Virus record (IMG/VR): IMGVR_UViG_3300035698_023389
Location: 1 to 49,533 of that record
Length of the DNA stretch: 49,533 nt
Direction: 5' to 3' (one strand)
Origin: a virus
Shown: positions 1,062 to 42,371 of the stretch, in pieces
Numbering within the stretch: the stretch's first letter is position 1
How the letters are laid out: the number at the start of each line of letters is the position of its first letter
Notes under the pieces: generated by a model
Told to the model about the DNA's origin: nothing
The model's database searches: none
The model's input: the letters and a program-made list of their open reading frames with translations, nothing else
Program-made: the position numbers and the translations under genes

Positions 1062-1274
1062 ATGATAGGTAGTAAGATTATCTCTGCTTTTAATATTGGT
1101 GACTTCGTCAAAGTAGTGGTCGAAGACACTAATGATAAGGGTGCAAACAAAGTTTTTTTTGGTACTATAACTGATCTCGATGTAGAAGCAGTAGTTCTAG
1201 AGTTAAATAATAAAAAACCTTGTGTCGCACATACAAAGTACCTTATCAGTATTGTAAAAGCAGAGAAAAAATGA
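1062..1274 (+). CDS. Small beta-rich hypothetical protein
   Basis: 70 residues starting after AAAGGTGATAGGAT, a strong ribosome site. The sequence alternates hydrophobic and charged residues (DFVKVVVED, FFGTITDLDVEAVVLELN), suggesting a small SH3/Sm-like barrel; that is an inference from pattern only. The stop overlaps the ATG of the MCM gene (ATGA at 1271-1274), so the two are probably translationally coupled and it may assist replication. Confidence 0.6.
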   Translation: MIGSKIISAFNIGDFVKVVVEDTNDKGANKVFFGTITDLDVEAVVLELNNKKPCVAHTKYLISIVKAEKK

Positions 1275-3550
1275 GTAAGAAAATCGATAAAGGTAATTAC
1301 TATTATAAGAAATTAGTAAAGTATCTTAAACGGACAAAGAATAATCCCTCAGGTAAATTCGTTTATATTACTAGTGCTTTGATTATGAAATTGTTTTTAG
1401 TTGAGAAAAATGACGATCCTATTCTTCTTAGTTCTCTTAATTTAACTGATAGAGAAAAAGAGATTTTTAGTAAGTTTAATAACAAAAGAATTTTTGAGAA
1501 CACTGAAGGCTTAACATACATTGACAGAGAAATATCTTCTGGAGTTATGGATTGGTGTAATAAGTATATACAGAGTGTTTCTAATACGATTATTCAGGAT
1601 AGCCGAAGCGTTAATTATAAGAACGCTAAAGAAATGGATGATAATCTATTGGTACCTAATGAGAACCACAGTTATGATGATGTGTTACTAAACTTATTTT
1701 ATAACTGTGATATAGAGTATGCATTCGTTGATAATGAAGTTGATCAACTCGTGTTCAACGGTACCTTACAAACTTGTGCTTTTAACGTTGGTAACACTGG
1801 GCATTTCAAAATAATTCCTACTAAGTATAAAACCGTTTGCACTTGTCAGACACAGTTTGGAGAGTGTGGTAACAGTGTTAATTATTGTAGAGTGCATAAG
1901 CATTGGAAATTAACATGTAATGATTCACATAATAATGTTGAGAGTGGTCATACTATTAAGGACCCATTCAGTAAACCTGCTATTGAGAACCGTAAGCTGT
2001 TCCATTATTTGTTAACCGATAAGAATGATGATAGTAACAAAGAGATAACTGCGTATTCTTTAACGGAGATAACAAGTAATGTCATTAAGTGCAATTGTGT
2101 GTTCGTTAACAATGATATAGAACCGTTCGTCTTAATATTAGGAGTCGATGTTACCGATGAAGATGATTCATTCGAAGGAGATTTTTTGTTGAAGAACCCA
2201 AAGAATTTTACTATGATCAATGATGTGTATGAGAGCATTAGAAAGTATTATAAGAAGCATCATAATGTTCTGATCGATAATAAGAATAAAGTTATTTGGC
2301 AGATCGTGATTTTACAGATGTTGTGCAAGAAGTTTTTTAATAACAGAGTGCACAGTATTATATTAGGTAAGAGTGGAACCGGTAAAACTTTCCCAGTTGA
2401 TGCTATTCTTCCATTGTTCACCTTCAATGAGAAGAGAGTAGTTGGCAGCAGTATTACTAGGAACAAGTTCTTAGGTGGGCCACAGAACAAGAACGTTTCC
2501 ACGTTTGTACCAGGTTATGCTTCGAGTCAGGAGGCGGTGTTTCTTGATGAAGTTAGTAGTAGTATACAGAGTTTCAGTAAAGCACCTGATCAACACGCTA
2601 ACCCTATTGCGATGATAAAAGATGCATCTAAATCTTTTTACACGGTAGCTATTCAAGGTGGTGACAAAGTTGCTGGCAATGCTACGTTTATATTAGCAGG
2701 TAATTTAGAGAATATGAACGAACATGTGTTAGAGTATAAGAAAAAAGTGCGTAATAATTATAAGACTTACAGTAATGTTAGAAGTAATTTTAATGGTCCT
2801 TTGTTCAAGAGCATAGAGTATTATAGCGTTGACAAAGGTAACACATTCATGGCCAAAGCACATGCGTATGCTAGGAAGAATTTTAACAGAGATTACTTAA
2901 CTGGTTTGGAACCAGCGGCGATTGGGCGTTTCAGTTTTGTAGTGTTATTGGAAGATGATAATGATGTTTTGGAACGCTTACCAAAAGGATGTAATTACCA
3001 TACCAAGAGTCTTAAAATGTTTGACACTATTAGTGGTAAGAAACTGCACCGTAACAATTTCATTGATGAATTGAATGGAGTGTTTGGTTTGGATGAAGAT
3101 AATAAGTTGTGTAGTATACCACAAGTTTTCAGTGATAAAGTACACGAGTTCTTCTATGAAGAGTTCTTGGCCAATAGAAATAATTTCAGTAAGTTTAAGA
3201 ATGAAAGTGTGAACACTCATTTCCAAAAGAGTCTTATTAATATTATCACACAATTATTGTACATGGACAAGGTTTATTGGGGTAAGCCACTAGAAATAGG
3301 TGAAGATGATCTGTTAATAGTTAATGATATTATGTTGTATAATTTTAATAGCTTGAGCATTGATGAAGCTAAGAAGGTTAAGAAACCTTATTATAATGAT
3401 TACGATGTGTTCAAAGCCGATGACTTGTTCACGGCTTTTGAAGAGAAGAATGATGAGAGAATTAAAAAAGAGTTAGAAGAGAAGAAGATGATAGAAAATA
3501 TTACAAAGAAGACAGATCCTTTCGATGAAGTGCAAGATGATGGTGAATAA
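1271..3550 (+). CDS. MCM-like AAA+ replicative helicase
   Basis: 759 residues. An N-terminal region has a Cys/His cluster typical of an MCM zinc-binding domain (CTCQ...CG...YCRVHKHWKLTC, about residues 188-216). The AAA+ core shows Walker A GKSGTGKT (about 366-373), Walker B AVFLDEVSS (about 422-430), sensor 1 FILAGN (about 473-478) and an arginine-finger motif IGRFSFVVLLEDD (about 550-562), in MCM order. The role is unwinding DNA at the viral fork as a hexamer. I chose the ATG at 1271 that overlaps the previous stop, not the upstream ATG at 1220 inside that gene. The primase is close downstream. Sequence divergence leaves some room for another AAA+ helicase, but the motif set fits MCM best. 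Confidence 0.85.
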   Translation: MSKKIDKGNYYYKKLVKYLKRTKNNPSGKFVYITSALIMKLFLVEKNDDPILLSSLNLTDREKEIFSKFNNKRIFENTEGLTYIDREISSGVMDWCNKYIQSVSNTIIQDSRSVNYKNAKEMDDNLLVPNENHSYDDVLLNLFYNCDIEYAFVDNEVDQLVFNGTLQTCAFNVGNTGHFKIIPTKYKTVCTCQTQFGECGNSVNYCRVHKHWKLTCNDSHNNVESGHTIKDPFSKPAIENRKLFHYLLTDKNDDSNKEITAYSLTEITSNVIKCNCVFVNNDIEPFVLILGVDVTDEDDSFEGDFLLKNPKNFTMINDVYESIRKYYKKHHNVLIDNKNKVIWQIVILQMLCKKFFNNRVHSIILGKSGTGKTFPVDAILPLFTFNEKRVVGSSITRNKFLGGPQNKNVSTFVPGYASSQEAVFLDEVSSSIQSFSKAPDQHANPIAMIKDASKSFYTVAIQGGDKVAGNATFILAGNLENMNEHVLEYKKKVRNNYKTYSNVRSNFNGPLFKSIEYYSVDKGNTFMAKAHAYARKNFNRDYLTGLEPAAIGRFSFVVLLEDDNDVLERLPKGCNYHTKSLKMFDTISGKKLHRNNFIDELNGVFGLDEDNKLCSIPQVFSDKVHEFFYEEFLANRNNFSKFKNESVNTHFQKSLINIITQLLYMDKVYWGKPLEIGEDDLLIVNDIMLYNFNSLSIDEAKKVKKPYYNDYDVFKADDLFTAFEEKNDERIKKELEEKKMIENITKKTDPFDEVQDDGE

Positions 3551-3762: not shown

Positions 3763-4005
3763 ATGAAAATTAATGTAGATATTTTAGAAAAGGTTGAGAA
3801 AATCGAAAAGAAAAAAGAAAATGAGATGGCCATAAGAAAAGCAGAGAATAAATACATTAAAAGATGTGTTGAAGCAAATGTATGTCCTGCTTGTGGTAAT
3901 ATAAATAATGTTGTTAATGATGATTCAGAGGAAATACATCCAAGTTCTCCATTTTATAGAAGGAAATGTGGCGAATGCAAAAAGAAGTTCCAATATGTAT
4001 ACTAA
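3763..4005 (+). CDS. Small zinc-ribbon protein
   Basis: 80 residues beginning after AGGAGGATAGATAAG. The N-terminal half is a charged helix. The C-terminal half has CPACG (about residues 46-50) and CGEC (about 71-74), a zinc ribbon of the C-x2-C...C-x2-C type. Its stop overlaps the chosen primase start by 11 bases. It may bind nucleic acid or accompany the primase. Confidence 0.65.
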   Translation: MKINVDILEKVEKIEKKKENEMAIRKAENKYIKRCVEANVCPACGNINNVVNDDSEEIHPSSPFYRRKCGECKKKFQYVY

Positions 4006-5068
4006 GAAAATGAAGAAAATTAGTGATGAACAAACAGTGAAAAGTTTTTGGTTTCTTTTAACAAGTGAGCTTAAGAGAACTGATTTCATCGAAGTACGAG
4101 CCGTTAGTATTATTGACAAAGAAGTTTATGATAGGATAAGAACTTTTAGTGAGGATTATGGTGTGGTTTGTAATAATAACTGCCAGTTGTTCTTTGGTAT
4201 AAAAGATTTTCATCTGTTCAAAATATTTATGATAGACACGTTCATTCTAAATCATTGTAAGTTGTGTTATGGTTTATCACCTCGTCAAAAAGGAAAAGAT
4301 GGTAAGTTCAGTGGAGGGTATGCTAACACCGGATATGCTAGTTTCATTTTCTTTGACATAGAGAAGACCACACATAGTGATACTAGTGATGCCGAGAAGA
4401 AGATGTTACTCGCTTACACTATTCAGATAGCATGGTTCTTGGAACGAGTCGGGTTAGAACATTATAATATAGTGGACAGTGGAGCTGGGTACCATTTACT
4501 GTACCGTATTCCTCGGACCAAGTTGAGCCCTGGTAAAAAGAGGTGGTTCAAGTTTTTCATTGAGACAATGGACGAAAAGCTGAAGAATGAGTATTTCCAT
4601 TTTGATCTGTTAAAAGATTTCACTAGGATCTTCGGTTTACCTGGTAGTTTCAATGTTAAGCGTGGTAGAAAGGTAGAACTAATAACTTTTGACCCTAGTA
4701 TAAATACTGACTTCAAATTTGGTAGTAAACGAGAGAAAAAGGTTGAGATCTCAGGTGAGAAACACATGATAAAAGGTAAGATGTGTGATGAGCCCTTGGT
4801 CAAGTTCATGATGTCATTTAAACATAAGAAGTTACAACACGGTGGGAGTTTGAGTAGGAACAGTTATTTAGAATTATCACTAGCTTGTTTGTTCAGAGAT
4901 AATGGGTTAAATGTAACGGATGTTAAAGATATTATACATAACATTAATATAAACATGAACAAGGTCATTCAAGTTAACCCTAAGTATGTACCTAAAGATT
5001 ACAATTTTAGTAAAACTGTGGTTAATAAATGGTCTATGGTCGAATGTGGAGTGAAAATATATGATTAA
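3995..5068 (+). CDS. Archaeo-eukaryotic primase (AEP, PriS-like)
   Basis: 357 residues. The three AEP motifs appear in order: metal-binding FFDIEKT (motif I), SGAGYH (motif II, S-x-G-x-H) and GLPGSFNVKRGRKVEL (motif III, with the usual Pro-Gly-Ser, Asn and Lys). This predicts synthesis of primers for the viral PolB. It sits directly after the MCM module, giving a helicase-primase block. I chose ATG 3995; ATG 4010 is equally plausible, and the longer frame from 3908 is inside the preceding gene. No C-terminal large-subunit domain (PriL) is apparent. Confidence 0.8.
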   Translation: MYTKKMKKISDEQTVKSFWFLLTSELKRTDFIEVRAVSIIDKEVYDRIRTFSEDYGVVCNNNCQLFFGIKDFHLFKIFMIDTFILNHCKLCYGLSPRQKGKDGKFSGGYANTGYASFIFFDIEKTTHSDTSDAEKKMLLAYTIQIAWFLERVGLEHYNIVDSGAGYHLLYRIPRTKLSPGKKRWFKFFIETMDEKLKNEYFHFDLLKDFTRIFGLPGSFNVKRGRKVELITFDPSINTDFKFGSKREKKVEISGEKHMIKGKMCDEPLVKFMMSFKHKKLQHGGSLSRNSYLELSLACLFRDNGLNVTDVKDIIHNININMNKVIQVNPKYVPKDYNFSKTVVNKWSMVECGVKIYD

Positions 5069-5115: not shown

Positions 5116-5207
5116 CTATATACTTAAAAATATAAATGTTTATATACTAGCATGATATATATATTATATCAAAGAGTTAACCCAACTAAAAGGGTGGAGA
5201 TACAAAA
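5106..5207 (+). promoter_or_regulatory. Promoter-leader cassette, copy 1
   Basis: A 102-base segment ending at the ATG of the DUF932 gene. It contains AAAATATAAA-TG-TTTATATACT at 5127-5148, a near-palindrome holding a TTTATATA box (5139-5146) that would place RNA start near 5168. The leader has ACCC and GGGT that can pair, with the ribosome site GGGTGGAGAT next to or inside the stem. The same 102 bases recur at 22956-23057 with 88 of 102 bases identical and no gaps. Confidence 0.7.
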
Positions 5208-8424: not shown

Positions 8425-8659
8425 TTTAACAGAAGAAGTGATGAAAGCAACGATGAGCAGAGAAACAGATAAGAATGTTAAATATTGCTTGGATAATATT
8501 ATTGACACACGTAAAACTAGTTTTATGTATGGTCAAATAGATTGTATTAACCCAGCTTATTGTCCTTTGAAACATGAAGGTGGGTACTGTTTAGTAGATG
8601 AGTACCATGACGAAGTGTATAGAGCTGAGCGTAACCATCTTGAGGTAAAAGTAAAATGA
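8417..8659 (+). CDS. Cys-containing small protein (80 aa)
   Basis: Starts inside the end of the previous gene and its stop overlaps the ATG of the QueC-like gene by four bases, so it belongs to the same operon. Cysteines at about residues 24, 43, 49 and 58 (including YCPLKHEGGYC) could bind a metal or Fe-S cluster. No family recognised. Confidence 0.55.
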   Translation: MTSLTEEVMKATMSRETDKNVKYCLDNIIDTRKTSFMYGQIDCINPAYCPLKHEGGYCLVDEYHDEVYRAERNHLEVKVK

Positions 8660-9273
8660 CTGGAAGAGAAATAGTTATTTGGAGTGGTGGATGTGATAGT
8701 ACTTTGGTATTAGCAGAAAGGGCAGTTAAATCTAGTAAAGAAAATCCTGTTCATACTTTAAGTTTTAATGTTCCATGGATAGATAAAAGACAAATGAGAT
8801 GTGAGTTCTTAGCTCGAAAGAAAATTCTTAAGGAATTGAAGAAGAGAGGGTTACATATTATTAACCATGAAGTTACATTAACTGAGAATCAAGAATTAGA
8901 TTTTGAGTATGGATTACCTCAACAACATTTTTGGTTTTTAATGAGTGTTTTTTATACTAAGAAAAATGATAAGGTTTATTTTGGTTATATTAGAGAGGAT
9001 GATTGGTGGCATATAGAAAAACATTATACTAATGCTCATTATTATTTAAAATTATGTAGGGATAGAGATGCAAAATTTGTTTACCCTTTAGAATGGATAA
9101 GTAAAGAAGAAGTAGTTAGGAATTTGAAGAAGGAAGATTTGTTGGATTTATGTTGGGTTTGTGACAGTCCAAAGAAAATTGGAGTTCCTTGTGGTAAATG
9201 TAAGAAATGTTTGGAACTCAAAGATGCTATTAATAAATTAGATGAAGAAGAAGTCGAGAGGCCGAAAAGATGA
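8656..9273 (+). CDS. QueC-like ATP-pyrophosphatase
   Basis: 205 residues. The PP-loop SGGCDST is at residues 10-16. A Cys cluster near the C-terminus, with Cys at 166, 169, 179, 182 and 185 (CWVC and CGKCKKC), matches the zinc site of QueC, 7-cyano-7-deazaguanine synthase. QueC makes preQ0, precursor of archaeosine, queuosine and the 7-deazaguanine bases found in some viral DNAs. No other preQ0 genes (FolE, QueD, QueE) or DNA/tRNA transglycosylase are seen in the window. It could draw on host precursors or catalyse a different adenylation. The family call is firm; exact substrate is inferred. Confidence 0.65.
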   Translation: MTGREIVIWSGGCDSTLVLAERAVKSSKENPVHTLSFNVPWIDKRQMRCEFLARKKILKELKKRGLHIINHEVTLTENQELDFEYGLPQQHFWFLMSVFYTKKNDKVYFGYIREDDWWHIEKHYTNAHYYLKLCRDRDAKFVYPLEWISKEEVVRNLKKEDLLDLCWVCDSPKKIGVPCGKCKKCLELKDAINKLDEEEVERPKR

Positions 9274-11169: not shown

Positions 11170-11379
11170 ATGAATAGGTATAAAAATATAATAATAGAAT
11201 GTTTACTAGGTCTTAAGAATGCCAATCTTATTTCTCAATCTGATGTAAAGGAATTAACACAGAGTATTTCTAAAAGAATAGAGATTCATGGTACTATAGA
11301 CATAGCGCCAACTTCTATTGTGGACAATAATGTAAAAGTAATTAAGACAAATTTCCATGATGTGGTAAATGAGGATTAA
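11170..11379 (+). CDS. Small hypothetical protein (69 aa)
   Basis: I chose ATG 11170 after AAAAAGGTGATAGGT, the same ribosome site string as before the gene at 1062; the frame is open further upstream but crosses the terminator. The product has an N-terminal helix (YKNIIIECLLGLKNANLISQSD) and no recognisable motif. Confidence 0.5.
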   Translation: MNRYKNIIIECLLGLKNANLISQSDVKELTQSISKRIEIHGTIDIAPTSIVDNNVKVIKTNFHDVVNED

Positions 11380-11383
11380 TAAA

Positions 11384-13750
11384 ATGACAGAACGATTAGT
11401 GTTTAATGCTAGCCCATCAAGTATGGGTTCATATGAGGATTCACAGTTACAGTTTTATTGTGGGTACATTGCCAAAAGAAAACCTGATACCAATGTAGTT
11501 AAAAGCTATGGGTGTGCGGGGCAGGTTGTGCATTATGTTCTGGAAGAATATGCCAAAAATAAGAACACAGATTACAAAAAATTATTACCAGAAAAATGGG
11601 GTAATTGGTCTTCTTATGGTAACCCTCCAATTAATTTGTACACTGCATACAGTCTCAGTAAAGGTGGAGCACCATTGAACATTGTTGATTATGAGTTCGC
11701 TGTTACGAATGGAGTTAGTAAATTAAAAAATTATTCTAATTTTAAAACTGAAGAACAAATAGTGTTCCCGTTAATAGATAATGAAAAAGCTTTGGTAAAT
11801 ATTAAAGGTTACATAGACCTTCAGATAATACATGATGATGGTAGTATAACTATTGTGGACTGGAAAACTAGTAGTTCAGTGGGTAAAGGAGATAATTTTA
11901 AGAACCAATTGTTTCATTATGCTCTAAGTGTTTGGAAGAAACATGGAATTATACCTAAAGAACTAGTATTGGAATATATTAAGATAGATAGGACCAAGAG
12001 GATGATGTTGGTAGAAGATAAACATAACCACAAATATGATAGTACTGTAGAAGTTTTCACTAAAGAAGACCTCCTTAATTACGAGAAACATCTTATTAGT
12101 ACAGTTAATGAAATAATAGATAAAGGGTTTGATATTAACAAGTATTCACCTGGTAAATGGGATAATATTTTTAATGCGCACAAAAAGTTTTGTGTTGAAG
12201 AAGTTTCTAGGAGATTACAGAATAAACCAGTTGAACAGGACTCCACACAAATTTTTACTATTGTTAAGTATGGTCATAAACATATTTTGAAAGGGCCTAT
12301 CACTTCTCTTTTATTACAGGGGTTATGTGGAGAGATGAGTTACAAGGAAGAGAATGAATATGTTGTATCTAGTGCTAACCGTAAAAATAATGGTGATTGG
12401 GATGGATGGTACAGGTTATACAATGGGCTGGATAATAGTTTTCCTCCTGGGTTACTGTATATTGTTAAAGGTGTGTTGAATGATTATGCCAAGCACAAAA
12501 AAATATATATTAAGATAAGGTATGATGATAAACGGAAACAGAAAACTGTTATTAAAGTTCCTAATGCGTTAATGACCATAAAAGAATTACGACCAAAACA
12601 GAAAACCTCAGCGGATCTAGCTGATGTGAATGAAAGTGGTATTTTTTCTATTGCAACAGGAGTGGGAAAAACTGTTCTAGCTTGTGAGATTATTAGACGT
12701 CATGGTATGAAAACATTGTTCATTGTTCATAGAACCAAATTGAGTAAGCAAGCCACTAAGACAATTGAACGTGAGTTGGACGTGCACTGTGGTAAATTGT
12801 TTGATGGTCACAAAGATGTGTGTGATGTTAATGTTGCTAATTGGCAGACAATAATCAAATCTTTGGATGGAGATAATAGTATGATGAAGTTTGCAATGGA
12901 AAACTTTCTTAAGAGCATAGACCTAGTTATTTATGATGAATGTCACATGGCTGCATGTGATAGCATGGTAAAAATTAATAAGTTTCTGATTAATTGTAAG
13001 AAAAGGTTCGGGTTAAGTGGTACACCTAGAAGAACCGATGGTCATACCATGAAATTACATGCTATTTGTGGAGATATATTAATGAAGTACCAGTACGCGG
13101 CATTCGAAGATGGTACATTAATGAAACCAACCATTAATTTTGTTAGGTTTAAACATAATATTAAACCCAAAGAAACCTTGTCTCCTGAAGAAGTACAGCG
13201 GCGAAGGCGGATGAGCAAACAGAACAAGCAATTAGAAGATTACCGTTTCGATTATGAGGATTACATTATTAACAGTGATGAACGAAACAAACTAGTTGTA
13301 GAGTATGCTAGCAAAATTTTTAAGGGTAATAAAATATTGGTGTTGGCAACTAGAGTAATGCATGTTAAGTTATTAGCTGAGATGTTGAAATGTAATTGTA
13401 TCACTAATGAAACTCCTAGAAATGAACGGGACAGTATTGAAAAGGAATTTGAAGATTGTACTGAAGGGGTGTTGGTTAGTACCAGTGCAATTTATGGTAC
13501 TGGTCTGGACATACCAGATATTGATAGAGTTATTAATATTAGTGCTAACAAAAGTGAGAACGATACGATACAGAAATTAGGTAGAGGAGTAAGAAGAGCT
13601 GCTGACAAAGGTAAAACAGATTTTATTTTCATTGATATATTGGATGAAGGTATACGAAGCTTAGAGAATGCTGCTAACTGTAGAATAGATGAGTTCAGAG
13701 ATTATGGGCACAAAGTAAGTATAATCGAGAGAGACGAGGTTGGAAAATGA
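11384..13750 (+). CDS. RecB-type nuclease fused to SF2 helicase
   Basis: 788 residues from ATG 11384. The N-terminal part is a PD-(D/E)xK nuclease of the RecB/Cas4 type: GYIDLQII (about residue 142), IVDWKTSS (about 156) and QLFHYAL. The C-terminal part is an SF2 DNA translocase of the XPB/UvsW type: motif I ATGVGKT (about 423-429), motif II DECH (about 518), motif III SGTPRR (about 545) and motif VI QKLGRGVRR (about 729-737). The middle region (about 250-400) is unassigned. Likely role: end processing and branch migration in viral recombination or repair. No Fe-S cysteine set of the Cas4 type is evident. Confidence 0.8.
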   Translation: MTERLVFNASPSSMGSYEDSQLQFYCGYIAKRKPDTNVVKSYGCAGQVVHYVLEEYAKNKNTDYKKLLPEKWGNWSSYGNPPINLYTAYSLSKGGAPLNIVDYEFAVTNGVSKLKNYSNFKTEEQIVFPLIDNEKALVNIKGYIDLQIIHDDGSITIVDWKTSSSVGKGDNFKNQLFHYALSVWKKHGIIPKELVLEYIKIDRTKRMMLVEDKHNHKYDSTVEVFTKEDLLNYEKHLISTVNEIIDKGFDINKYSPGKWDNIFNAHKKFCVEEVSRRLQNKPVEQDSTQIFTIVKYGHKHILKGPITSLLLQGLCGEMSYKEENEYVVSSANRKNNGDWDGWYRLYNGLDNSFPPGLLYIVKGVLNDYAKHKKIYIKIRYDDKRKQKTVIKVPNALMTIKELRPKQKTSADLADVNESGIFSIATGVGKTVLACEIIRRHGMKTLFIVHRTKLSKQATKTIERELDVHCGKLFDGHKDVCDVNVANWQTIIKSLDGDNSMMKFAMENFLKSIDLVIYDECHMAACDSMVKINKFLINCKKRFGLSGTPRRTDGHTMKLHAICGDILMKYQYAAFEDGTLMKPTINFVRFKHNIKPKETLSPEEVQRRRRMSKQNKQLEDYRFDYEDYIINSDERNKLVVEYASKIFKGNKILVLATRVMHVKLLAEMLKCNCITNETPRNERDSIEKEFEDCTEGVLVSTSAIYGTGLDIPDIDRVINISANKSENDTIQKLGRGVRRAADKGKTDFIFIDILDEGIRSLENAANCRIDEFRDYGHKVSIIERDEVGK

Positions 13751-15358: not shown

Positions 15359-15388
15359 TATACTTTAGTATATAAATGTTTATATACT
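15359..15388 (+). promoter_or_regulatory. Palindromic TATA promoter element, site 3
   Basis: AGTATATAAA and its exact complement TTTATATACT, separated by TG, lie at 15367-15388, preceded by TATACT at 15359-15364. TTTATATA (15379-15386) would place RNA start near 15408-15412, so the downstream gene should start at 15420 rather than 15390. Confidence 0.65.
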
Positions 15389-16015: not shown

Positions 16016-18247
16016 ATGGAAAGGATAATTGTCAATATAAAAGAAACCAAAGATGGACTGTTTTGTAAGTTAAGAGAAGATGGTAAACTAATATACAGGC
16101 AGATACCTTTCCATAACTATTTTTTTATTAGAGAAGAAGATTATGATTCTGTTAAAAATGTGTGCAATCAATATTGTATTAACATTGAAACCATTCACAA
16201 TAATGATGGTACTTTCATGAAACTAGTACTAAAAAATAATTTTTGGAGATACAAGTTTAAGAATGTATTGGAAGAAGATATGGAAATACAAGTTTTTTGT
16301 GGAGATGTTAATACCAAAAAGAATTTCTTAATAGAAAACCAACACATACTTCTAAATCAAGATAAGATTAATGTATTATATCTGGACATTGAAACCGATG
16401 ATCGTAAACCAATGGACAAAGATTTCAGTGGTACCACATTACCAACTAGTTGTATAACGGCTATTGCTTTTAAAGATCTCAAAGAAATAGTTAAAACATA
16501 TTATAATACGGCTAGAGATACTGAAGAAGGAAAGCACATGAAATGCTTATATGAAAAATTGATAATGTATAAGAAACAAGAAGTTAACCCTAAAAATCTT
16601 AAATTAATAAAAGACGCTAGACAAAAAATTGATGAGCATGCAATAATATTTGACCCTATTCTTTTAGAACATGAAAAATATTTGTTACAAAATATTATTA
16701 AGTACATGAAAGATTCTGACATGGCATTAGCTTGGAATGGATGGAGATTTGATTTCCCTATTCTTAAAGGTAGATGTGAATTGCATAACCTTAATTACTC
16801 AGAGAATTTGGTAATGGACATAGATTATATGGAAGTGTATAAGAAAAATAGTTATTCTAATTTAGATTCTTATTCGTTGAACAACGTTGCAAAACACGAA
16901 TTTGAGGAAGAAGTTAATAATACCAATAGTAAGTTCAAAAACCTGGATGAAGTACAGAAAATAGATTGGAAAGAATTAACTGGTCTAACAAAGTTCTTTG
17001 AATTCTACTTATTAGAACCTAAACTATTCGAAGAATATAATATACAGGACGTGAACTTAATGTATTTATTGGAGGACAAACTTAAGTTCCTTAAGATACA
17101 GTTTGTTCTTAGTAAATTATGTCACTGTTTATTAGATGAATCCTTACATAATAGTAAGTCATTTGATTATGCAATGTTAAATGAGTACAGTATAGATAAG
17201 TTAACTGCACCTAGTAAACCTTCTAAAGAAACAAAAGAATCATGGATGCATCCTATCGAGGGTATTTTCCCACCTGGTGCTTTCACTTATATATTTAAGA
17301 AAGGATTAACATTGAACAGTGAGTGCTACGACTTCAAATCACAGTACCCTACTAATGGTGTAACATATAATATTTCTCCCGATACACTAGTAGAATCAAG
17401 ATTACCTGATCTAAGCTTGGTATTTAATGAAAAAGAAATAGAGTACATTAAATACTGTGAAGGCATTGCAAAAAAATATTTGGATTCTAAGGGTAAGCTA
17501 AGAAAGAAAAAGTATGAAACTAACATAGAAGTTAAAAGAACTGAGTTAGATGTTAGAAATATGACCGAATTAATGTGGCGTTTTGTTGAGTTCTATGAAC
17601 CATCAGAAAAAACACAATTGGAATTAAAAGAAAGAAATTTGGTAATGACACCAACTGATCTGAACTACTCTACTAGAGGATGGAAGGTACACCCTCACCA
17701 TTTGTTCACTCATAAGAAAGGTGTGTTTCCTAGGTTATGTGAATATTTCCTAACTGAAAGAGATAAGGTAAAATACACCATGAAAAAAATGGAACCAAAA
17801 AGTTTTGAGTACCAAGAAGCCGATTCATACCAAGGAGCTTTAAAAACTGCAGGTAACAGTGGGTATGGTTACTTCGCTTTTAAGAGTAGTAGGTTCTTCT
17901 GTATGGAAATACCTGAAGCTATTACTACATCAAGTAGATTTGCCACTAAAAAAAGTATTATATTTGCTAAGCACAAAGGGTATGAAAGTAGTCATGGAGA
18001 TACGGATTCAGCATATTTATATAATGTAACCAATGAATTTTCATTAGAGGATATGAACGAGATGTTCTACGATTACTTTGATGAAATGGTAAGACCTTAT
18101 AATACTAATTGTGAGATAACATTGTACAATCCTAAAACTAAAGAAGCCAAAATAAAGAACCACTTCATTGTTTTTGAACATGAGAAAACATTGGATGCAT
18201 GTATCGTTGTTAAGAAGAAAAGGTATTATTATAAGAGGAAAAAATGA
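16016..18247 (+). CDS. Family B DNA polymerase, exonuclease and palm part
   Basis: 743 residues. Proofreading motifs: Exo I DIET (124-127), Exo II NGWRFD (241-246), Exo III YNIQD (341-345). Polymerase motifs: A DFKSQYP (439-445), B KTAGNSGYG (610-618), C HGDTDS (660-665), and KKKRY (733-737). The ORF stops six residues after KKRY, so the thumb domain is missing here and is encoded by the separate ORF at 18423. Together the two would form a complete PolB of about 950 residues. All catalytic residues are intact, so it is probably active as a two-subunit enzyme. Starts after TTGAGGATATAAAA. Confidence 0.88.
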   Translation: MERIIVNIKETKDGLFCKLREDGKLIYRQIPFHNYFFIREEDYDSVKNVCNQYCINIETIHNNDGTFMKLVLKNNFWRYKFKNVLEEDMEIQVFCGDVNTKKNFLIENQHILLNQDKINVLYLDIETDDRKPMDKDFSGTTLPTSCITAIAFKDLKEIVKTYYNTARDTEEGKHMKCLYEKLIMYKKQEVNPKNLKLIKDARQKIDEHAIIFDPILLEHEKYLLQNIIKYMKDSDMALAWNGWRFDFPILKGRCELHNLNYSENLVMDIDYMEVYKKNSYSNLDSYSLNNVAKHEFEEEVNNTNSKFKNLDEVQKIDWKELTGLTKFFEFYLLEPKLFEEYNIQDVNLMYLLEDKLKFLKIQFVLSKLCHCLLDESLHNSKSFDYAMLNEYSIDKLTAPSKPSKETKESWMHPIEGIFPPGAFTYIFKKGLTLNSECYDFKSQYPTNGVTYNISPDTLVESRLPDLSLVFNEKEIEYIKYCEGIAKKYLDSKGKLRKKKYETNIEVKRTELDVRNMTELMWRFVEFYEPSEKTQLELKERNLVMTPTDLNYSTRGWKVHPHHLFTHKKGVFPRLCEYFLTERDKVKYTMKKMEPKSFEYQEADSYQGALKTAGNSGYGYFAFKSSRFFCMEIPEAITTSSRFATKKSIIFAKHKGYESSHGDTDSAYLYNVTNEFSLEDMNEMFYDYFDEMVRPYNTNCEITLYNPKTKEAKIKNHFIVFEHEKTLDACIVVKKKRYYYKRKK

Positions 18248-18422: not shown

Positions 18423-19058
18423 ATGGATGAATACGAAAAAGATGGGTATATATATGGGTGTACGGGTGGTGCTTGGGGTAAGAAAGATACAATGCCGCTC
18501 AGTGCAAATCTTCAAAAGGAACTTGTAGAAAATATATTAGACCAAAAATATGACAGAGATGTTTGGAAAAATAGGATAATGGAATTAAAAGAAAAAACTT
18601 TTAATTATGAACTAGAAACAGAACATCTTAGAATGGTGAAAGGTATAACAAAGAAATTTTCTGATTATGGTAAACCAGTTATTGATGGTAAAACAGGTGC
18701 ACATAAAACTAGAAAGAGTGATGGTGGTAAAATGTTTGCTCCCATCCCCGGGCACGTGAAACTAGGTATGAGATTAGAGAAAGAAGGTTTTGAAATAGTT
18801 ATTGGTGATAGAATAGAATATATTGTTTTAACATCCGGTCCTATTGAAGCCATCAGTTTAAAAGAATTTGAAGCTAATAAGAAGTATGATGCCAAATATT
18901 ATTGGGAAAGAATAATTACGCCACTAATAGAGATCTTAAATGTTTGTGATACAGAAAATATTTATTCTCATTATATAGATTGTTGGAATTTTACTGAAAG
19001 AAAAATTAAGAATCTTTTAACAAAGATTGAAGAGGAGGAAGATCAAGATGGAGAATGA
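18423..19058 (+). CDS. Family B DNA polymerase, thumb part
   Basis: 211 residues with its own ribosome site (GGTAAGGTGTTAAAAC). KKDTMPLSANLQKELVENIL corresponds to the RRD-x-P...K...Q segment that opens the PolB thumb, and GDRIEYIVLTSG with YDAKYYWERIITPLIEIL matches the later part of the domain (GDRVxYV, D-x-xYY, P-x-xRIL). This is the missing C-terminus of the polymerase at 16016. It should bind primer-template duplex and pair with the larger subunit. The end overlaps the dUTPase start by 11 bases. Confidence 0.75.
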   Translation: MDEYEKDGYIYGCTGGAWGKKDTMPLSANLQKELVENILDQKYDRDVWKNRIMELKEKTFNYELETEHLRMVKGITKKFSDYGKPVIDGKTGAHKTRKSDGGKMFAPIPGHVKLGMRLEKEGFEIVIGDRIEYIVLTSGPIEAISLKEFEANKKYDAKYYWERIITPLIEILNVCDTENIYSHYIDCWNFTERKIKNLLTKIEEEEDQDGE

Positions 19059-19554
19059 TGATAAGAAACCGGAAATAACTAATGACGGAGTGTGTGAAGC
19101 TTTTCATGCACAACCATTAGGTACATTACATGTGAAAGTAAAGAAATTAAGTAATTATATTAATGGGCCTAATGAACCTGCTAAAGAAGGTGATGCTGGC
19201 AGTGATTGTTTTGCTACTAGAAGTGTACGTTTAGATGGTGGTGAAAGATTTAATATGGCATTGGGCGTAGCACTAGAATTTCCTAGTTCTCATGTTTGTT
19301 TAGTACAAGGTAAGAGTGGTTTGGCTAATGAAAAAGGAATCGATACTATTGGTAATGTCATAGATAGTGGTTATAGAGGAGAGATACACGCCCAGATAGT
19401 TAACACTTCTAATGATGATACAGTTGTTATTCATAAAGGTGATAAGATTTGTCAACTATTATTCATACCAATAGCTAAACCTTGGTTTAACCATGTAGAA
19501 GAACTTAGTGATAGTGATCGTGGAGACAAAGGTTTTGGGAGCACCGGAAAATGA
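19048..19554 (+). CDS. dUTPase (trimeric, all-beta)
   Basis: 168 residues from ATG 19048, after AGAGGAGGAAGATCAAG; upstream ATG 19027 would add seven residues. All five motifs are present: AGSDCFA (I), QGKSGLA (II), GNVIDSGYRGEI (III), KGDKICQLLF (IV) and DRGDKGFGSTGK (V, C-terminal). It hydrolyses dUTP to dUMP and pyrophosphate, keeping uracil out of DNA and feeding the pyrimidine pool. Related dCTP deaminases lack the motif V tail. First gene of the nucleotide/modification cluster. Confidence 0.88.
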   Translation: MENDDKKPEITNDGVCEAFHAQPLGTLHVKVKKLSNYINGPNEPAKEGDAGSDCFATRSVRLDGGERFNMALGVALEFPSSHVCLVQGKSGLANEKGIDTIGNVIDSGYRGEIHAQIVNTSNDDTVVIHKGDKICQLLFIPIAKPWFNHVEELSDSDRGDKGFGSTGK

Positions 19555-20057
19555 AAATAGTACTGGATATTGATGAAGTATTAAGAGATACTATGAGAGG
19601 TATTCTTAAAGTTTACAATAGAGATTACAATAATAGTGAACTAGTACAGTATGAAGATGTTAATGGTTGGAATTTAAAAAATTCGTTACCTGACATGCCC
19701 AATAATGAATTGTTTTTCAGAAAACATGCTGAAGAAATATTTTTGGAAAGTGAACCACATCGGTATAACAATTTATTTAATTCTGTTTTGGAACATGATG
19801 TGTATATTGCTTCAACACAGTTTAAAGGACTGGAACATTTAACTGATGCATGGCTAGCCAAATATAAAATTACTAGTGATGAGTTAGTTTATACATCTGA
19901 TAAATCTAAAATGGGAGATATTCTATTGGATGATGGAGTACATAACCTAAAAGATTTTGAAGGAATATCTGTTTGTATGGATAGACCTTGGAACAAAGAA
20001 TGGAATGGTGACAGAGTTAAAACAATAAAAGAATTTTATGAAAAATACGTTAGGTGA
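19551..20057 (+). CDS. HAD-family 5'(3')-deoxyribonucleotidase-like
   Basis: 168 residues, start overlapping the dUTPase stop. The N-terminal LDIDEVLRDT is the HAD motif I (D-x-D-x-V/T), IASTQFK fits motif II (S/T), and the KSKMGDILLDDGVHNL stretch fits motifs III and IV (Lys and the DD pair). Size and layout match small deoxyribonucleotidases that remove phosphate from dNMPs. Next to a dCMP hydroxymethylase-like gene it may remove unmodified dCMP or balance dUMP; that is inference. The second Asp of motif I and the final Asp pair support activity. Confidence 0.7.
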   Translation: MKIVLDIDEVLRDTMRGILKVYNRDYNNSELVQYEDVNGWNLKNSLPDMPNNELFFRKHAEEIFLESEPHRYNNLFNSVLEHDVYIASTQFKGLEHLTDAWLAKYKITSDELVYTSDKSKMGDILLDDGVHNLKDFEGISVCMDRPWNKEWNGDRVKTIKEFYEKYVR

Positions 20058-20063
20058 TAAGAT

Positions 20064-20648
20064 ATGACTGAAATAAATAAACTAGTATTAAGAAGTGTTA
20101 AAGAAATATTGCACGAAAAACAAATAATTCTAATATTGGATTCTGTGGATATGTGCGGAAAAACTGAAGTTGCTAATAAATTAAATGATTTGTTAGGATT
20201 ACCGGTGTATAAAAATTCTAAAGAACAGAGTATGTGGCAAGATAAATTAATATCTTTAATTTATGGACAAGAGGAGTTGACACAGTTCTTAGAGAAAACT
20301 GGCTACTCAGTTATTTTTGACAGATTTCATGCTAGCGAGTATGTTTATTCTAAAGTGTTCAAAAGAATTTCACATGATGGAGTTGTAATGGATATTGATA
20401 AAAGATTAGCAACATTGAATTGCTTGATAATTTATCCTTGGAAAAATAGTAATAAGTACTTAGCAGATGATCAGGGTATAGTAAAAATAGAACAGTATGA
20501 TTCATTAAAGAAACATTACGAGGAGTTTTTTAATAAAACTAAATGTGATGTAATAAGATACAACGCTGATGACGAAGACTTAGGTAAACAGATGAACATA
20601 ATTTTACAAGCAATTTTTGGTATGTTTAATGAGGTGAAAATAGAATGA
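20064..20648 (+). CDS. Deoxynucleoside monophosphate kinase (TMK-like)
   Basis: 194 residues after TTAGGTGATAAGAT. The P-loop is SVDMCGKTEVA (about residues 27-37), close to the G-x-D-x-x-GKT of thymidylate kinases with Ser in place of the first Gly. FDRFHASEYVY (about 89-99) corresponds to the DR(Y/F) substrate motif. It probably phosphorylates a dNMP. In T4, gp1 kinase performs this step for hydroxymethyl-dCMP, and the position between nucleotidase and hydroxymethylase genes suggests an equivalent task. Substrate not decidable from sequence. Confidence 0.7.
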   Translation: MTEINKLVLRSVKEILHEKQIILILDSVDMCGKTEVANKLNDLLGLPVYKNSKEQSMWQDKLISLIYGQEELTQFLEKTGYSVIFDRFHASEYVYSKVFKRISHDGVVMDIDKRLATLNCLIIYPWKNSNKYLADDQGIVKIEQYDSLKKHYEEFFNKTKCDVIRYNADDEDLGKQMNIILQAIFGMFNEVKIE

Positions 20649-21601
20649 AAATCGGGTTCTATAAACCTCATTGGCCAATAAAATTTTTGAATGACAACGA
20701 TGATATGGATGCGATTAGTTATGAAGTTGTTAATGTAATGAAAATTTTTGCTGAACGAGGTCATGATTGTAGAATATTAAGTGAAAATGATTTAGATGCC
20801 AATGGGGCAGTACTTTATAGTGGGCAATTAATACACCCTGGTTCTATGAAAGAAAAGTATGATAGAATATTTTTATTTGGTGGTCCATTCCACTTAGAAC
20901 CTAATAGAAATTTAATACCTGATCTAAAAAAACTTACCCCTATACTAGATTTTATTTTAACTGATACTAGGTGTATGCCACCTTACGAAAGTGATTTGGA
21001 TTATTTTGATACCTTTTATAGCCAATGCACAGAAGATACTTATTTGGGTATGCCTAATGTTTATGGTGGTGTAGCAGAATTTAGGTGTTATAATATGGAA
21101 TTAGTAGAACCAACTGAAGAACTAATACGTAATAAAGGTGTTAATCTTTATTTTGGTGGTACTACTAGAAACAGATTGAAAAAATATGAACGATATATAT
21201 GGGAGCATAGAGATAGTTGGGCAATAACTGGAGAAAGTAAACCACTTAGTTTTAATAACCGAGTTAGCAGAGATCTCTATTTGGAATTGTTAAAACAAAC
21301 CAAGTTTAGCTTAGTGTTCTGTGATGTTGATTATGAAAAAAATAATTTTATTACTCCCCGACACTACGAATACATAGAAGCCAATATCGTTAGTTTCTGT
21401 GATATTGATTGGGACAAAGGAGAACATATTATGAAAATTGATGACTGGCAAAGAGTAGATAATTATTATGCTATGCAAAGAAAAATTAATCATTTGTTAC
21501 AAAACCCATTAATGCATTTAGAAATATTGAAGAAACAAAAAAATTCTATACCAAAAAGTTACATAAATGGGGATTACGTTTATAGGAGGTTAAAAAAATG
21601 A
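20645..21601 (+). CDS. T4 beta-glucosyltransferase-like DNA glycosyltransferase
   Basis: 318 residues (T4 BGT has 351). GT-B layout. Motifs align with T4 BGT from memory: KYDRIFLFGG (71-80) with its YDRLIVV segment; LTDTR (105-109) with TDIR, whose Asp100 is the catalytic base; FGGTTRNR (170-177) with GGSFRSGQR, which contacts UDP; NNFITPRHYE (233-242) with NDNFITLRVWE, giving Arg239 and Glu242 at the UDP-ribose positions. Predicted reaction: transfer of a sugar from a UDP-sugar to hydroxymethylcytosine in DNA. It sits against the hydroxymethylase gene, with a GAGGTGAAAATAGA ribosome site. Sugar and linkage are unknown. Confidence 0.75.
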   Translation: MKIGFYKPHWPIKFLNDNDDMDAISYEVVNVMKIFAERGHDCRILSENDLDANGAVLYSGQLIHPGSMKEKYDRIFLFGGPFHLEPNRNLIPDLKKLTPILDFILTDTRCMPPYESDLDYFDTFYSQCTEDTYLGMPNVYGGVAEFRCYNMELVEPTEELIRNKGVNLYFGGTTRNRLKKYERYIWEHRDSWAITGESKPLSFNNRVSRDLYLELLKQTKFSLVFCDVDYEKNNFITPRHYEYIEANIVSFCDIDWDKGEHIMKIDDWQRVDNYYAMQRKINHLLQNPLMHLEILKKQKNSIPKSYINGDYVYRRLKK

Positions 21602-22308
21602 CGAATGAAGAAATATTATTAGAAAAAGTTTATATTAAATTATCAGAAGATTTAAAAGGCGACAACTTTGTTGTTGATAGAACTGGTGTTAAAACCGTTG
21701 AAACAATTAATTGTTGTGTTGACGGTTTAGATCCGTTACAGAAAACTCTCAATTTTAATGGTAGAAAAACTCCTGCTAAATATGTTAGAAAAGAAAGTGA
21801 TTGGTATAATAGTATGGATAGAAACATTAAAGGATGGGTAGATGATATTAAGATTTGGAGAGATGTATCTGATAAAGATGGACTGGTTAATTCTAATTAT
21901 GGATGGTGTATTTTTTCTAAAGAGAATTTCTCACAGTATGATAATTGTATAGGAGAATTAATTAATGACCCTAATAGTAGGAGAGCTGTCATGATATATA
22001 ACAGACCTTCAATGCATGAAGACTTCAATAAAAATGGTATGAATGATTTTATTTGTACACAGAACACGCAACATCTTATTAGAGATGATAAACTAGTGTA
22101 CTTAGTTTTTCAGAGATCTCAAGATATGATATTCGGATTGTTCAATGATTTAGCATGGCACCACGAAGTGTATGAAAAAATGTATGATGACTTAACATGC
22201 GCTGGTGTTGAACTTGATGGTGGGTATATTAATTTAAACATTGGTTCTGCTCATGTTTATGAGAGACATTTTGATATGTTGGAACAAATTGTGAGCACCA
22301 AAAAATGA
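21598..22308 (+). CDS. dCMP hydroxymethylase (thymidylate synthase family)
   Basis: 236 residues after TAGGAGGTTAAAAAA. Strong resemblance to T4 gp42: FVVDRTGVKT (24-33), VNSNYGW (97-103), SRRAVMIYNRPSM (127-139), NDFICTQ with the nucleophile Cys153 (T4 Cys148) and FGLFNDLAW (179-187) with Asp184 (T4 Asp179). Thymidylate synthases and dUMP hydroxymethylases have Asn at that last position, so Asp predicts dCMP as substrate. Reaction: dCMP plus methylene-tetrahydrofolate and water gives 5-hydroxymethyl-dCMP. The stop overlaps the next start. Confidence 0.85.
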   Translation: MTNEEILLEKVYIKLSEDLKGDNFVVDRTGVKTVETINCCVDGLDPLQKTLNFNGRKTPAKYVRKESDWYNSMDRNIKGWVDDIKIWRDVSDKDGLVNSNYGWCIFSKENFSQYDNCIGELINDPNSRRAVMIYNRPSMHEDFNKNGMNDFICTQNTQHLIRDDKLVYLVFQRSQDMIFGLFNDLAWHHEVYEKMYDDLTCAGVELDGGYINLNIGSAHVYERHFDMLEQIVSTKK

Positions 22309-22772
22309 GTTGGACAGGTGGGCCATTAACCGTAGAACCTTATGTTGGTTTTGTGTATTTAGTAACAGAAAAAAGTACTGGGATGAAATACATTGGTAGT
22401 AAGAGATACTGGGCCATTGATAAAAAGAAACCTGGTAAGTTTAAGATGGTGGGTAAAGGTGAATTCTTACATGGAAAAGATGGTAAACGAGTACTAGAAA
22501 CCAGGACGGTTAACAGAAATACTAGAGTGGAAACTGATTGGAAGACGTACAACACCAGTAATAAAATAATGCATGAGAACCTGAAAAATACCCCAGATAA
22601 TTATACTAAAGAGATAATTAGATCATGTACATCATTAAGTGAAATGAAAGGGTACGAAGCATATTTACAGTTGGATTGGTATTTTAACAAGGATTGGTCA
22701 AAATTATATAATAAGATGGTTAATGTTAGGATGAAGATGAAAACCCCTAGTTCTGATGGTACAAAATCATGA
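22305..22772 (+). CDS. GIY-YIG endonuclease-like protein
   Basis: 155 residues, start overlapping the hydroxymethylase stop. GFVYLVTEKSTGMKYIGSKRYW (about residues 15-36) carries the GIY...YIG pair in the form GFVY/KYIG, followed by a conserved Lys-Arg. WKTYNTSNK (about 79-87) and a Glu in GYEAYLQLDW resemble the Seg-type phage endonucleases. It may be a free-standing homing endonuclease or a nuclease targeting competing DNA. Insertion directly after the hydroxymethylase gene is typical of mobile phage endonucleases. Confidence 0.65.
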   Translation: MSWTGGPLTVEPYVGFVYLVTEKSTGMKYIGSKRYWAIDKKKPGKFKMVGKGEFLHGKDGKRVLETRTVNRNTRVETDWKTYNTSNKIMHENLKNTPDNYTKEIIRSCTSLSEMKGYEAYLQLDWYFNKDWSKLYNKMVNVRMKMKTPSSDGTKS

Positions 22773-22955: not shown

Positions 22956-23057
22956 AGTAAATAACGTGTATACTCAAGTATATAAATATTTATATACTTG
23001 TGTGATATACATATTATATCAAAAAGTTAGCCCAACTACAAGGGTGGAGATATAAAA
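22956..23057 (+). promoter_or_regulatory. Promoter-leader cassette, copy 2
   Basis: Same 102-base unit as 5106-5207, 88 identical bases without gaps. Here the core is a perfect 22-bp palindrome: AGTATATAAAT followed by its complement ATTTATATACT (22977-22998), preceded by TATACT at 22969-22974. TTTATATA at 22989-22996 would start RNA near 23019. The leader stem is GCCC/GGGT instead of ACCC/GGGT. It drives the micro-gene operon. Confidence 0.7.
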
Positions 23058-23240
23058 ATGGAAAAAGACAAAATAATAAAATTTAGAGATAAATTTGGAA
23101 AAATCAAACCCGGGTCATATATTGGACTTTGGACACATGCTCATTCTAAAAAAGGAGATATCGAAGTATTAGTAAAACATACTGAAACTTTATCATTCAT
23201 CACAATAATAAACAAAAGTCAAATATTACCAGGTGAATGA
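23058..23240 (+). CDS. Small hypothetical protein, first of the micro-gene operon (60 aa)
   Basis: Follows the GGGTGGAGATATAAAA ribosome site of the cassette. Sequence is basic with beta-like stretches (KPGSYIGLWTHAH, IEVLVKHTETLSFITIIN), perhaps a small barrel fold. As the first gene behind a strong promoter it should be well expressed early. Confidence 0.6.
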   Translation: MEKDKIIKFRDKFGKIKPGSYIGLWTHAHSKKGDIEVLVKHTETLSFITIINKSQILPGE

Positions 23241-42353: not shown

Positions 42354-42371
42354 TTTTATTAGCCTCACGCT

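Follow-up and report, generated by a model that had tools for sequence, protein, structure and literature searches.

The window, as we call the whole stretch of DNA analysed, is a 49.5-kb metagenomic fragment of a tailed virus, and it likely encodes a pathway for T4-type hypermodification of cytosine; the virus has a contractile tail, and its host is probably archaeal. In phage T4, cytosine is replaced by sugar-tagged hydroxymethylcytosine, and the most likely product of the enzymes predicted here is glycosylated 5-hydroxymethylcytosine (5hmC) DNA.

A five-gene cassette

The enzyme families, their active-site residues and the gene arrangement can be read directly from the DNA. Five open reading frames (ORFs) at 19048-22308 lie contiguously on one strand. 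Three of their junctions are 4-bp start/stop overlaps, and the remaining one is a 6-bp gap. An earlier note on this DNA had named them as a dUTPase, a deoxyribonucleotidase, a dNMP kinase, a glycosyltransferase (GT) similar to the T4 β-glucosyltransferase (BGT), and a dCMP hydroxymethylase (HMase) similar to T4 gp42. The ORF positions and the matches in Pfam, phrog and PDB show that the genes are present, contiguous and correctly named.

19048..19554, + strand: dUTPase, trimeric type (Pfam PF00692, E 2.2e-24; phrog_135, E 4e-35)
19551..20057, + strand: HAD-type 5'(3')-deoxyribonucleotidase, NT5C (Pfam PF06941, E 4.9e-18)
20064..20648, + strand: P-loop dNMP kinase, candidate 5hm-dCMP kinase (phrog_761, E 5e-11; weak match to Pfam thymidylate kinase, 0.024)
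20645..21601, + strand: DNA β-glucosyltransferase-like GT-B enzyme (phrog_7922 beta-glucosyltransferase, E 2e-9)
21598..22308, + strand: dCMP hydroxymethylase, T4 gp42 type (PDB T4 gp42, E 7e-55)

The combination of a gp42-like HMase and a BGT-like GT with a dUTPase, a nucleotidase and a kinase is well supported by the PDB matches, tree, profile, residues and fold described below.

The hydroxymethylase and the glycosyltransferase

The protein encoded at 21598-22308 is, by sequence, a dCMP hydroxymethylase, and the formation of 5hm-dCMP is predicted. Its PDB match to T4 gp42 is 45 orders of magnitude ahead of that to any thymidylate synthase (TS), the best of which has an E-value of 2.6e-9. All of the catalytic and specificity residues of gp42 that were compared, the roles of which have been described (PMC6400193), are retained, including the equivalents of Cys148, Glu60, Asp145 and Asp179. 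Thus, E66, S99, Y101, R128, R129 and D150 correspond to T4 E60, S94, Y96, R123, R124 and D145, and C153, D176, D184, Y221 and R223 to T4 C148, D171, D179, Y218 and R220. The position of gp42 Asp179 is occupied by an Asn in the E. coli TS and in dUMP-type phage enzymes, but by an Asp (D184) in the window, which points to cytosine as the substrate base. The earlier note had named grouping with ordinary TS as the outcome that would speak against it; a quick tree gave the opposite result, placing the HMase inside the gp42 clade with a support of 99 and far from the E. coli TS. The score, the Asp residue and the tree position argue strongly against an ordinary TS, and this reading was rejected. Among annotated HMases, those closest to it come exclusively from bacterial phages.

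The protein encoded at 20645-21601 is a remote homologue of T4 BGT, for which sugar transfer is predicted. A profile built from 79 BGTs, from which the window sequence was excluded, matched it with an E-value of 4e-17 and matched nothing else in the window, which disfavours a cell-wall glycosyltransferase. The overlay suggested in the earlier note places the predicted fold nearest to T4 BGT (Z 20.0 over 282 residues, VIA; next GT-B enzyme 17.1), and T4 BGT also provides the top Foldseek matches, among which is its D100A structure; as the AlphaFold model itself draws on BGT homologues, these results are not independent of the profile. In T4 BGT, Asp100 is the catalytic base and Glu22, Arg191, Arg195, Asp258, Arg269 and Glu272 bind UDP-glucose. 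The corresponding residues of the GT are E27, D107, R175 and R177 (T4 E22, D100, R191 and R195) and D227, Y230, R239 and E242 (T4 D258, Y261, R269 and E272). Together, the window-free profile, the fold and the conserved Asp100 and UDP-sugar residues bear out the BGT-like assignment. The identity to T4 BGT is only about 20-28%. On the acceptor side, where BGT binds DNA and flips the base, the GT has a shorter segment after the catalytic Asp107 than T4 BGT does, and model confidence is low at residues 114-142; the acceptor and the sugar may therefore differ.

Gene neighbourhood and relatives

The cassette is flanked by a DNA polymerase that is split into two ORFs and by a homing-type endonuclease gene, and a nucleotide-sugar enzyme is encoded elsewhere in the window.

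16016..18247, + strand: family B DNA polymerase (PolB), N-terminal part (Pfam PF00136, E 6e-16)
18423..19058, + strand: PolB, C-terminal part in an ORF of its own (48% identity to the C-terminal part of the PolB of L022)
22305..22772, + strand: GIY-YIG homing-type endonuclease, SegE-like (Pfam PF19835, E 5e-15), overlapping the HMase stop codon
41433..42368, - strand: nucleotide-sugar epimerase/dehydratase in the tail-gene block (phrog_540, E 5e-62)

The epimerase/dehydratase also matches the dTDP-glucose dehydratase model TIGR01181 (E 5e-38, far under the model cut-off), and it is possibly a sugar-donor enzyme for the cassette.

Similar to the window, T4 encodes an HMase and a BGT near a family B DNA polymerase; both enzymes are homologous to those of the window and share their active-site residues. 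It also carries a GIY-YIG gene, segA, beside b-gt, just as a GIY-YIG endonuclease adjoins the HMase-BGT pair here; a GIY-YIG-like ORF was recognised by eye after the HMase in another locus (L033). However, the gp56 dCTPase, the gp1-family kinase and the α-glucosyltransferase of T4 were not recognised in the window, where the operon instead contains a dUTPase, an NT5C nucleotidase and a P-loop kinase. The window also differs from T4 in its gene order, with the GT preceding the HMase, in the low identity of its GT to T4 BGT (about a quarter), and in its probable archaeal-type host. No gp56-like dCTP pyrophosphatase was recognised on the contig, a fragment with many unassigned small ORFs, which leaves the exclusion of dCTP unexplained. 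Hence, while the enzyme assignments of the earlier note stand, its description of the pairing as complete is too strong, given this gap, the shorter acceptor-side region of the GT and the fragmentary contig.

The nearest relative by polymerase is L022 (JAIPJN010000016.1), which is found in a Patescibacteria bin. The PolB at 16016..18247 is 43% identical to that of L022 over 744 aa, and the PolB (43%), dUTPase (60%) and HMase (40%) that it shares with the window lie side by side in L022, whereas the polymerase of L022 is a single, unsplit protein of 919 aa. Another locus, L034, encodes an HMase that is 53% identical to that of the window. Where the window has the BGT homologue, both L022 and L034 have a homologue (33-36%) of the 5hmC carbamoyltransferase, a demonstrated enzyme that makes 5-carbamoyloxymethylcytosine (PMC8670742), suggesting that the tailoring enzyme is swappable.

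The HMase-BGT pairing is in itself ordinary, and cassettes of this kind are widespread among bacterial viruses. A scan with an alignment led by the sequence from L046 yielded 70 viral BGT loci, 54 of which have an HMase within 5 kb; the scan with the GT alignment led by the window sequence gave no matches. At least two of the dNMP kinase, HMase and BGT genes are clustered in nattely (L012), in an uncultured 462-kb phage (L019) and in the viral contig L046. These have bacterial or unassigned hosts, and no polymerase or AAA protein related to those of the window was found in them. A dNMP kinase accompanies the clustered HMase in L019, L031 and L046, and kinase-HMase-BGT clusters occur in the unrelated phages L019 and L046. 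Single-sequence scans of viral contigs with the HMase, GT, AAA protein and PolB recovered one distant phage only (L002), and the PolB alignment scan recovered only remote PolBs (22-29%).

Host signals

The earlier note had placed the cassette beside an MCM helicase, an archaeo-eukaryotic-type (AEP) primase and archaeal TATA promoters. The features concerned are as follows.

1220..3550, + strand: AAA+ protein, the MCM of the earlier note (Pfam AAA only, E 0.002)
3908..5068, + strand: putative archaeo-eukaryotic-type primase (AEP-like motifs, by eye alone)
15368..15387, no strand assigned: palindromic TATA-like repeat GTATATAAATRTTTATATAC, intergenic
22978..22997, no strand assigned: palindromic TATA-like repeat GTATATAAATATTTATATAC, intergenic

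The MCM was not borne out, as the protein has the weak AAA match, no match to the MCM profile and an unusable single-sequence AlphaFold2 model (pLDDT 31.5). Nor was the primase, for which AEP-like motifs were seen by eye and no profile matched, PriS included. In contrast, the TATA-like elements are real and intergenic. All seven strand-hits of TTTAWATACT fall in intergenic DNA, where shuffles expect 0.2; since some of them come from both strands of a single palindrome, the seven hits represent five sites. Copies or half-copies of the repeat are located at about 5139, 10300, 15368 and 22978, all intergenic, and the TTTATATACT half of the repeat at 22978..22997 ends 59 nt upstream of the gene at 23058. 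The hexamers TATAAT and TTGACA are not enriched in the intergenic DNA of the window.

The ratio of GGTG to AGGA Shine-Dalgarno cores is 14:10 in the window, compared to 6:5 in psiM2 and 9:5 in Drs3, the two cultured methanogen viruses that are the only archaeal viruses in the calibration. Across 117 control virus loci, the ratio is 105:668, from which the window differs (Fisher p 9e-8). The translation and promoter signals thus look archaeal, which is supportive but not diagnostic of an archaeal host. Codon usage in AT-rich controls is similar to that of the window and does not discriminate between hosts. The Shine-Dalgarno usage and the intergenic TATA-like sites support the archaeal setting proposed earlier; the MCM and the primase that had been cited for it do not.

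Restriction-site avoidance was discarded as an indicator of modification. In the window, no tetramer is more depleted than GATC (O/E 0.53), and CATG is also depleted, whereas hydroxymethylated coliphages seldom avoid sites (PMC6286503). However, GATC is as low in 24% of the control loci, mostly HMase- or BGT-bearing, and depletion within the control range is uninformative.

Proposed pathway and alternative explanations

In the proposed pathway, the HMase would convert dCMP and methylene-tetrahydrofolate to 5hm-dCMP, which the neighbouring P-loop kinase, together with a kinase of the host, would convert to 5hm-dCTP for incorporation by the viral family B polymerase. The BGT-like enzyme would then attach a sugar to the hydroxymethyl group in DNA, most likely glucose donated by UDP-glucose, while the dUTPase and the nucleotidase may shape the pyrimidine pool. 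The resulting viral DNA would be resistant to many restriction enzymes and some CRISPR nucleases. We infer the order of substrates, the sugar, the completeness of replacement and the protection.

The same chemistry could operate in a bacterial host, for example of a candidate phylum or syntrophic lineage, with the archaeal-looking signals being coincidental; the window would then simply add to the many bacteriophages that carry an HMase-BGT pair. We regard this as a serious but less probable explanation. It would fit with the location of L022 in a Patescibacteria bin and its bacterial-type Shine-Dalgarno cores (0 GGTG to 9 AGGA), with the 13 out of 13 HMase loci in bacterial MAGs in a genome collection scan that took in no archaeal genome, with the resemblance of the contractile-tail sheath, helicase and DHH proteins of the window to those of bacterial phages, and with the lack of matches to the MCM and PriS profiles. 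However, the Shine-Dalgarno usage of the window is like that of the methanogen viruses and unlike that of the control loci, and TATA-box-like sites, rather than sigma-70-type hexamers, are enriched in its intergenic DNA.

A different outcome, in which cytosine is modified but another sugar is used, or in which the substrate of the GT is a nucleotide or a different hydroxymethyl base, is likewise a serious but less probable explanation. The low identity to T4 BGT, the shorter acceptor-side region, the epimerase/dehydratase gene and the carbamoyltransferase in relatives are compatible with it, and arabinose is noted for the T4 relative RB69 (PMC6024577). Yet, the Asp100 base and the UDP-sugar-binding residues of T4 BGT are retained, and the Asp at position 179 of gp42 points to cytosine. 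Very improbable, and already contradicted, is that the pair represents an ordinary TS and a glycosyltransferase for the cell wall or structural proteins, unrelated to DNA modification. The HMase is indeed a TS superfamily member (Pfam PF00303, E 2e-17), with a match to an archaeal TS model that falls below the model cut-off (E 5e-13), and the GT-B fold is common to many cellular enzymes, but the far better gp42 match, the Asp in place of the TS Asn, the tree position, the BGT-specific profile and the recurrent HMase-BGT pairing all argue against it.

Novelty and significance

What could be novel is the host domain, rather than the HMase-BGT pairing. In the titles and abstracts screened, with subscription papers and preprints outside their scope, the pathway is not reported in an archaeal virus, and in the searchable papers the known DNA-base protection of archaeal tailed viruses is limited to methylation and 7-deazaguanines. 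We tentatively put forward, at somewhat short of an even chance, that an archaeal tailed virus glycosylates 5hmC with homologues of gp42 and BGT, which would be the first such case outside bacteriophages in the literature screened, and that a core of polymerase, HMase and dUTPase has been exchanged between archaeal and bacterial viruses while the tailoring enzyme (BGT or carbamoyltransferase) was swapped. If true, glycosyl-5hmC counter-defence would cross the divide between bacteria and archaea, and corresponding archaeal defences aimed at modified cytosine would be predicted. The relative in which a carbamoyltransferase replaces the BGT makes a fixed HMase core with exchangeable tailoring enzymes a testable idea.

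Virus-encoded preQ0/archaeosine DNA modification is described in haloarchaeal tailed viruses (PMC8651126). This is also a base modification in archaeal tailed viruses, but it targets guanine with other enzymes, whereas the predicted target of the cassette is cytosine. DpdA, QueD and QueE were not recognised in the window; a QueC-like gene is present.

Hydroxymethylase and glucosyltransferase-like enzyme in the cassette

The five consecutive genes in which the earlier note saw a pathway for hydroxymethylation and glycosylation of cytosine are present at 19048-22308, and profile or PDB searches matched them to the claimed enzyme families. The ORFs lie head to tail, overlapping by 4 bp at three of the four junctions and standing 6 bp apart at the remaining one, and are followed by a sixth gene.

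Genes of the cassette and its downstream neighbour
19048-19554, +, dUTPase (E 2e-24)
19551-20057, +, NT5C-type HAD nucleotidase (E 5e-18)
20064-20648, +, P-loop dNMP kinase (phrog_761, E 5e-11)
20645-21601, +, beta-glucosyltransferase-like protein (phrog_7922, E 2e-9)
21598-22308, +, gp42-like hydroxymethylase (PDB T4 dCMP hydroxymethylase, E 7e-55)
22305-22772, +, SegE-like GIY-YIG endonuclease, overlapping the hydroxymethylase stop

Among all PDB sequences, the top matches of the 21598-22308 protein are structures of T4 dCMP hydroxymethylase (gp42), and the best thymidylate synthase match has an E of 2.6e-9. Of the T4 residues given roles in catalysis or substrate choice in the 2019 ternary-complex paper (PMC6400193), all those compared are kept: Glu60, Ser94, Tyr96, Arg123, Arg124, Asp145, Cys148, Asp171, Asp179, Tyr218 and Arg220. 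Asp179 selects cytosine in gp42 (PMC6400193), and its position is occupied by Asn in E. coli ThyA and two Asn-type phage enzymes of the compared set. In a quick tree of 108 rows, the protein falls inside the gp42 clade (99% SH-aLRT), next to the viral contig L033 (91), and a long branch divides it from ThyA, in agreement with the assignment in the earlier note.

For the glycosyltransferase, plain tblastn found only T4 beta-glucosyltransferase (BGT) among phages (E 1e-3). A profile of 79 BGT homologues, with the window sequence left out, matched 20645-21601 as the sole ORF in the whole window (E 4e-17). Both Foldseek and VIA-align place T4 BGT nearest to an AlphaFold2 model built on 41 sequences (mean pLDDT 73; VIA-align Z 20.0, 3.4 Å over 282 residues, next GT-B enzyme 17.1). 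The model is not independent of the profile, because its alignment is made up of BGT homologues. E27, D107, R175 and R177 align with T4 BGT E22, D100, R191 and R195, the R175 and R177 matches coming from the profile-guided alignment and being absent from the first pairwise one, and D227, Y230, R239 and E242 align with D258, Y261, R269 and E272. The proposed BGT-like identity is thus supported. The segment past D107, shorter than its T4 counterpart, also has a poor prediction, and acceptor recognition may therefore differ.

At least 582 hydroxymethylase relatives were found in viral contigs in one alignment scan, 54 of the 70 BGT loci in a BGT scan of viral contigs have a hydroxymethylase inside their 5-kb flanks, and unrelated phages also carry kinase-hydroxymethylase-BGT clusters. 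As a module, the cassette is therefore of a kind already known and widespread among viruses. The analysis shows its enzyme families, active-site residues, operon-like arrangement and recurrent pairing. In the proposed pathway, the hydroxymethylase would form 5hm-dCMP, phosphorylation would follow by the linked kinase and one of the host, the family B DNA polymerase (PolB) would incorporate the modified nucleotide, and sugar transfer would take place in DNA, which would then be shielded from nucleases. No gp56-like dCTPase for dCTP exclusion was recognised in the window.

Methyltransferases and 7-deazaguanine pathways have been described in archaeal tailed viruses (PMC8651126), and none of the open-literature titles and abstracts screened for archaeal viruses with a hydroxymethylase, 5hmC or glucosyltransferase reported this pathway in one. 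The cassette belongs to a known kind and possibly extends it to a new host domain.

Host domain

We lean towards an archaeal host. Counts of the Shine-Dalgarno cores GGTG and AGGA are 14:10 for the window, 6:5 for psiM2 and 9:5 for Drs3, both cultured methanogen viruses, and 0:9 for L022, the nearest relative by polymerase. A set of 117 other virus loci has 105:668, from which the window differs with a Fisher p of 9e-8 (window entered as 16:11, counted at a lower gene-length limit). TTTAWATACT gives seven strand-hits, all intergenic (~9% of the window), against 0.2 expected in dinucleotide shuffles; three sense copies sit 58-59 nt upstream of a start codon, and TATAAT and TTGACA show no intergenic bias in the window. 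A palindrome (GTATATAAATRTTTATATAC or near it) lies at several of these positions, so some strand hits represent one site, and the element may be a repressor operator. These two signals, Shine-Dalgarno cores and promoters, point to archaea.

The MCM and AEP primase said to adjoin the cassette were not confirmed, and support for the archaeal setting comes from the ribosome-binding and TATA-like signals. The supposed MCM (1220-3550) had no MCM-profile match, weak AAA similarity and no usable structure model, and the supposed primase (3908-5068) had no PriS profile match. By eye, as leads, the former has an MCM-like order of cysteine-rich N-terminal half, Walker A GKSGTGKT, FLDE and GRFSFVVLLE, and the latter the AEP-like motifs FFDIE, GYHLLYR and GLPGSFN.

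The ~80-nt upstream regions 5127-5208 and 22976-23058 are nearly identical and precede two unrelated genes. Both contain a TATA palindrome, a TGATATA-ATATTATATCA dyad and a CCCAACTA-AAGGGTGGAGAT ribosome-binding stretch, and look like a common regulated promoter.

Nearest relative and genome layout

L022 (JAIPJN010000016.1) is a 15-kb contig from a Patescibacteria bin, in which PolB (43% identical to that of the window over 744 residues; 48% in the C-terminal part), dUTPase (60%) and hydroxymethylase (40%) adjoin one another. In place of a BGT it has a homologue (33%) of a carbamoyltransferase for which 5hmC carbamoylation was shown biochemically (PMC8670742), and another locus, L034, also has such a homologue (36%) and a hydroxymethylase 53% identical to that of the window. 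These homologues in the place of BGT suggest a stable core of polymerase, hydroxymethylase and dUTPase whose tailoring enzyme can be exchanged. The NodU/CmcH-type carbamoyltransferases (L022:4803-6554 and L034:6439-8136) adjoin gp42-like hydroxymethylases, and each locus also holds glycosyltransferase/uracil-glycosylase-like ORFs and a P-loop kinase.

While the L022 polymerase is one ORF of 919 residues across the junction, that of the window is two (16016-18247 and 18423-19058), ~175 nt apart and split directly past the KKRYY motif, possibly by an intron, an intein remnant or a homing-related split. In T4 the genes run polymerase 43, imm, 42, b-gt and segA; a polymerase, the hydroxymethylase-BGT pair and a GIY-YIG homing endonuclease are clustered in both T4 and the window, which may reflect ancestry, homing-driven transfer or chance.

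Up to ~27.4 kb, rightward genes encode replication and nucleotide functions, and leftward genes beyond it encode tail proteins (sheath, baseplate, tape-measure-like). The window is an entire IMG/VR virus record (49,533 bases); neither a capsid nor a portal or terminase gene was recognised in it, and the record therefore probably represents a fragment of the virus genome. A nucleotide-sugar epimerase/dehydratase gene (41433-42368) sits amid the tail genes, and 11369-13750 encodes a single 793-aa protein, a PD-(D/E)XK nuclease (Cas4/RecB-like) fused to a UvsW-like helicase. A QueC-like gene (8656-9273; phrog_1550 E 2e-27, NCBIfam QueC far under cut-off) stands alone, with no QueD, QueE or DpdA recognised in the window, and could either be part of a 7-deazaguanine pathway or encode a QueC put to another use. 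GATC is the most depleted tetramer over the whole window (O/E 0.53), and CTAG is over-represented (1.21), which is unusual among control virus loci (94th percentile).
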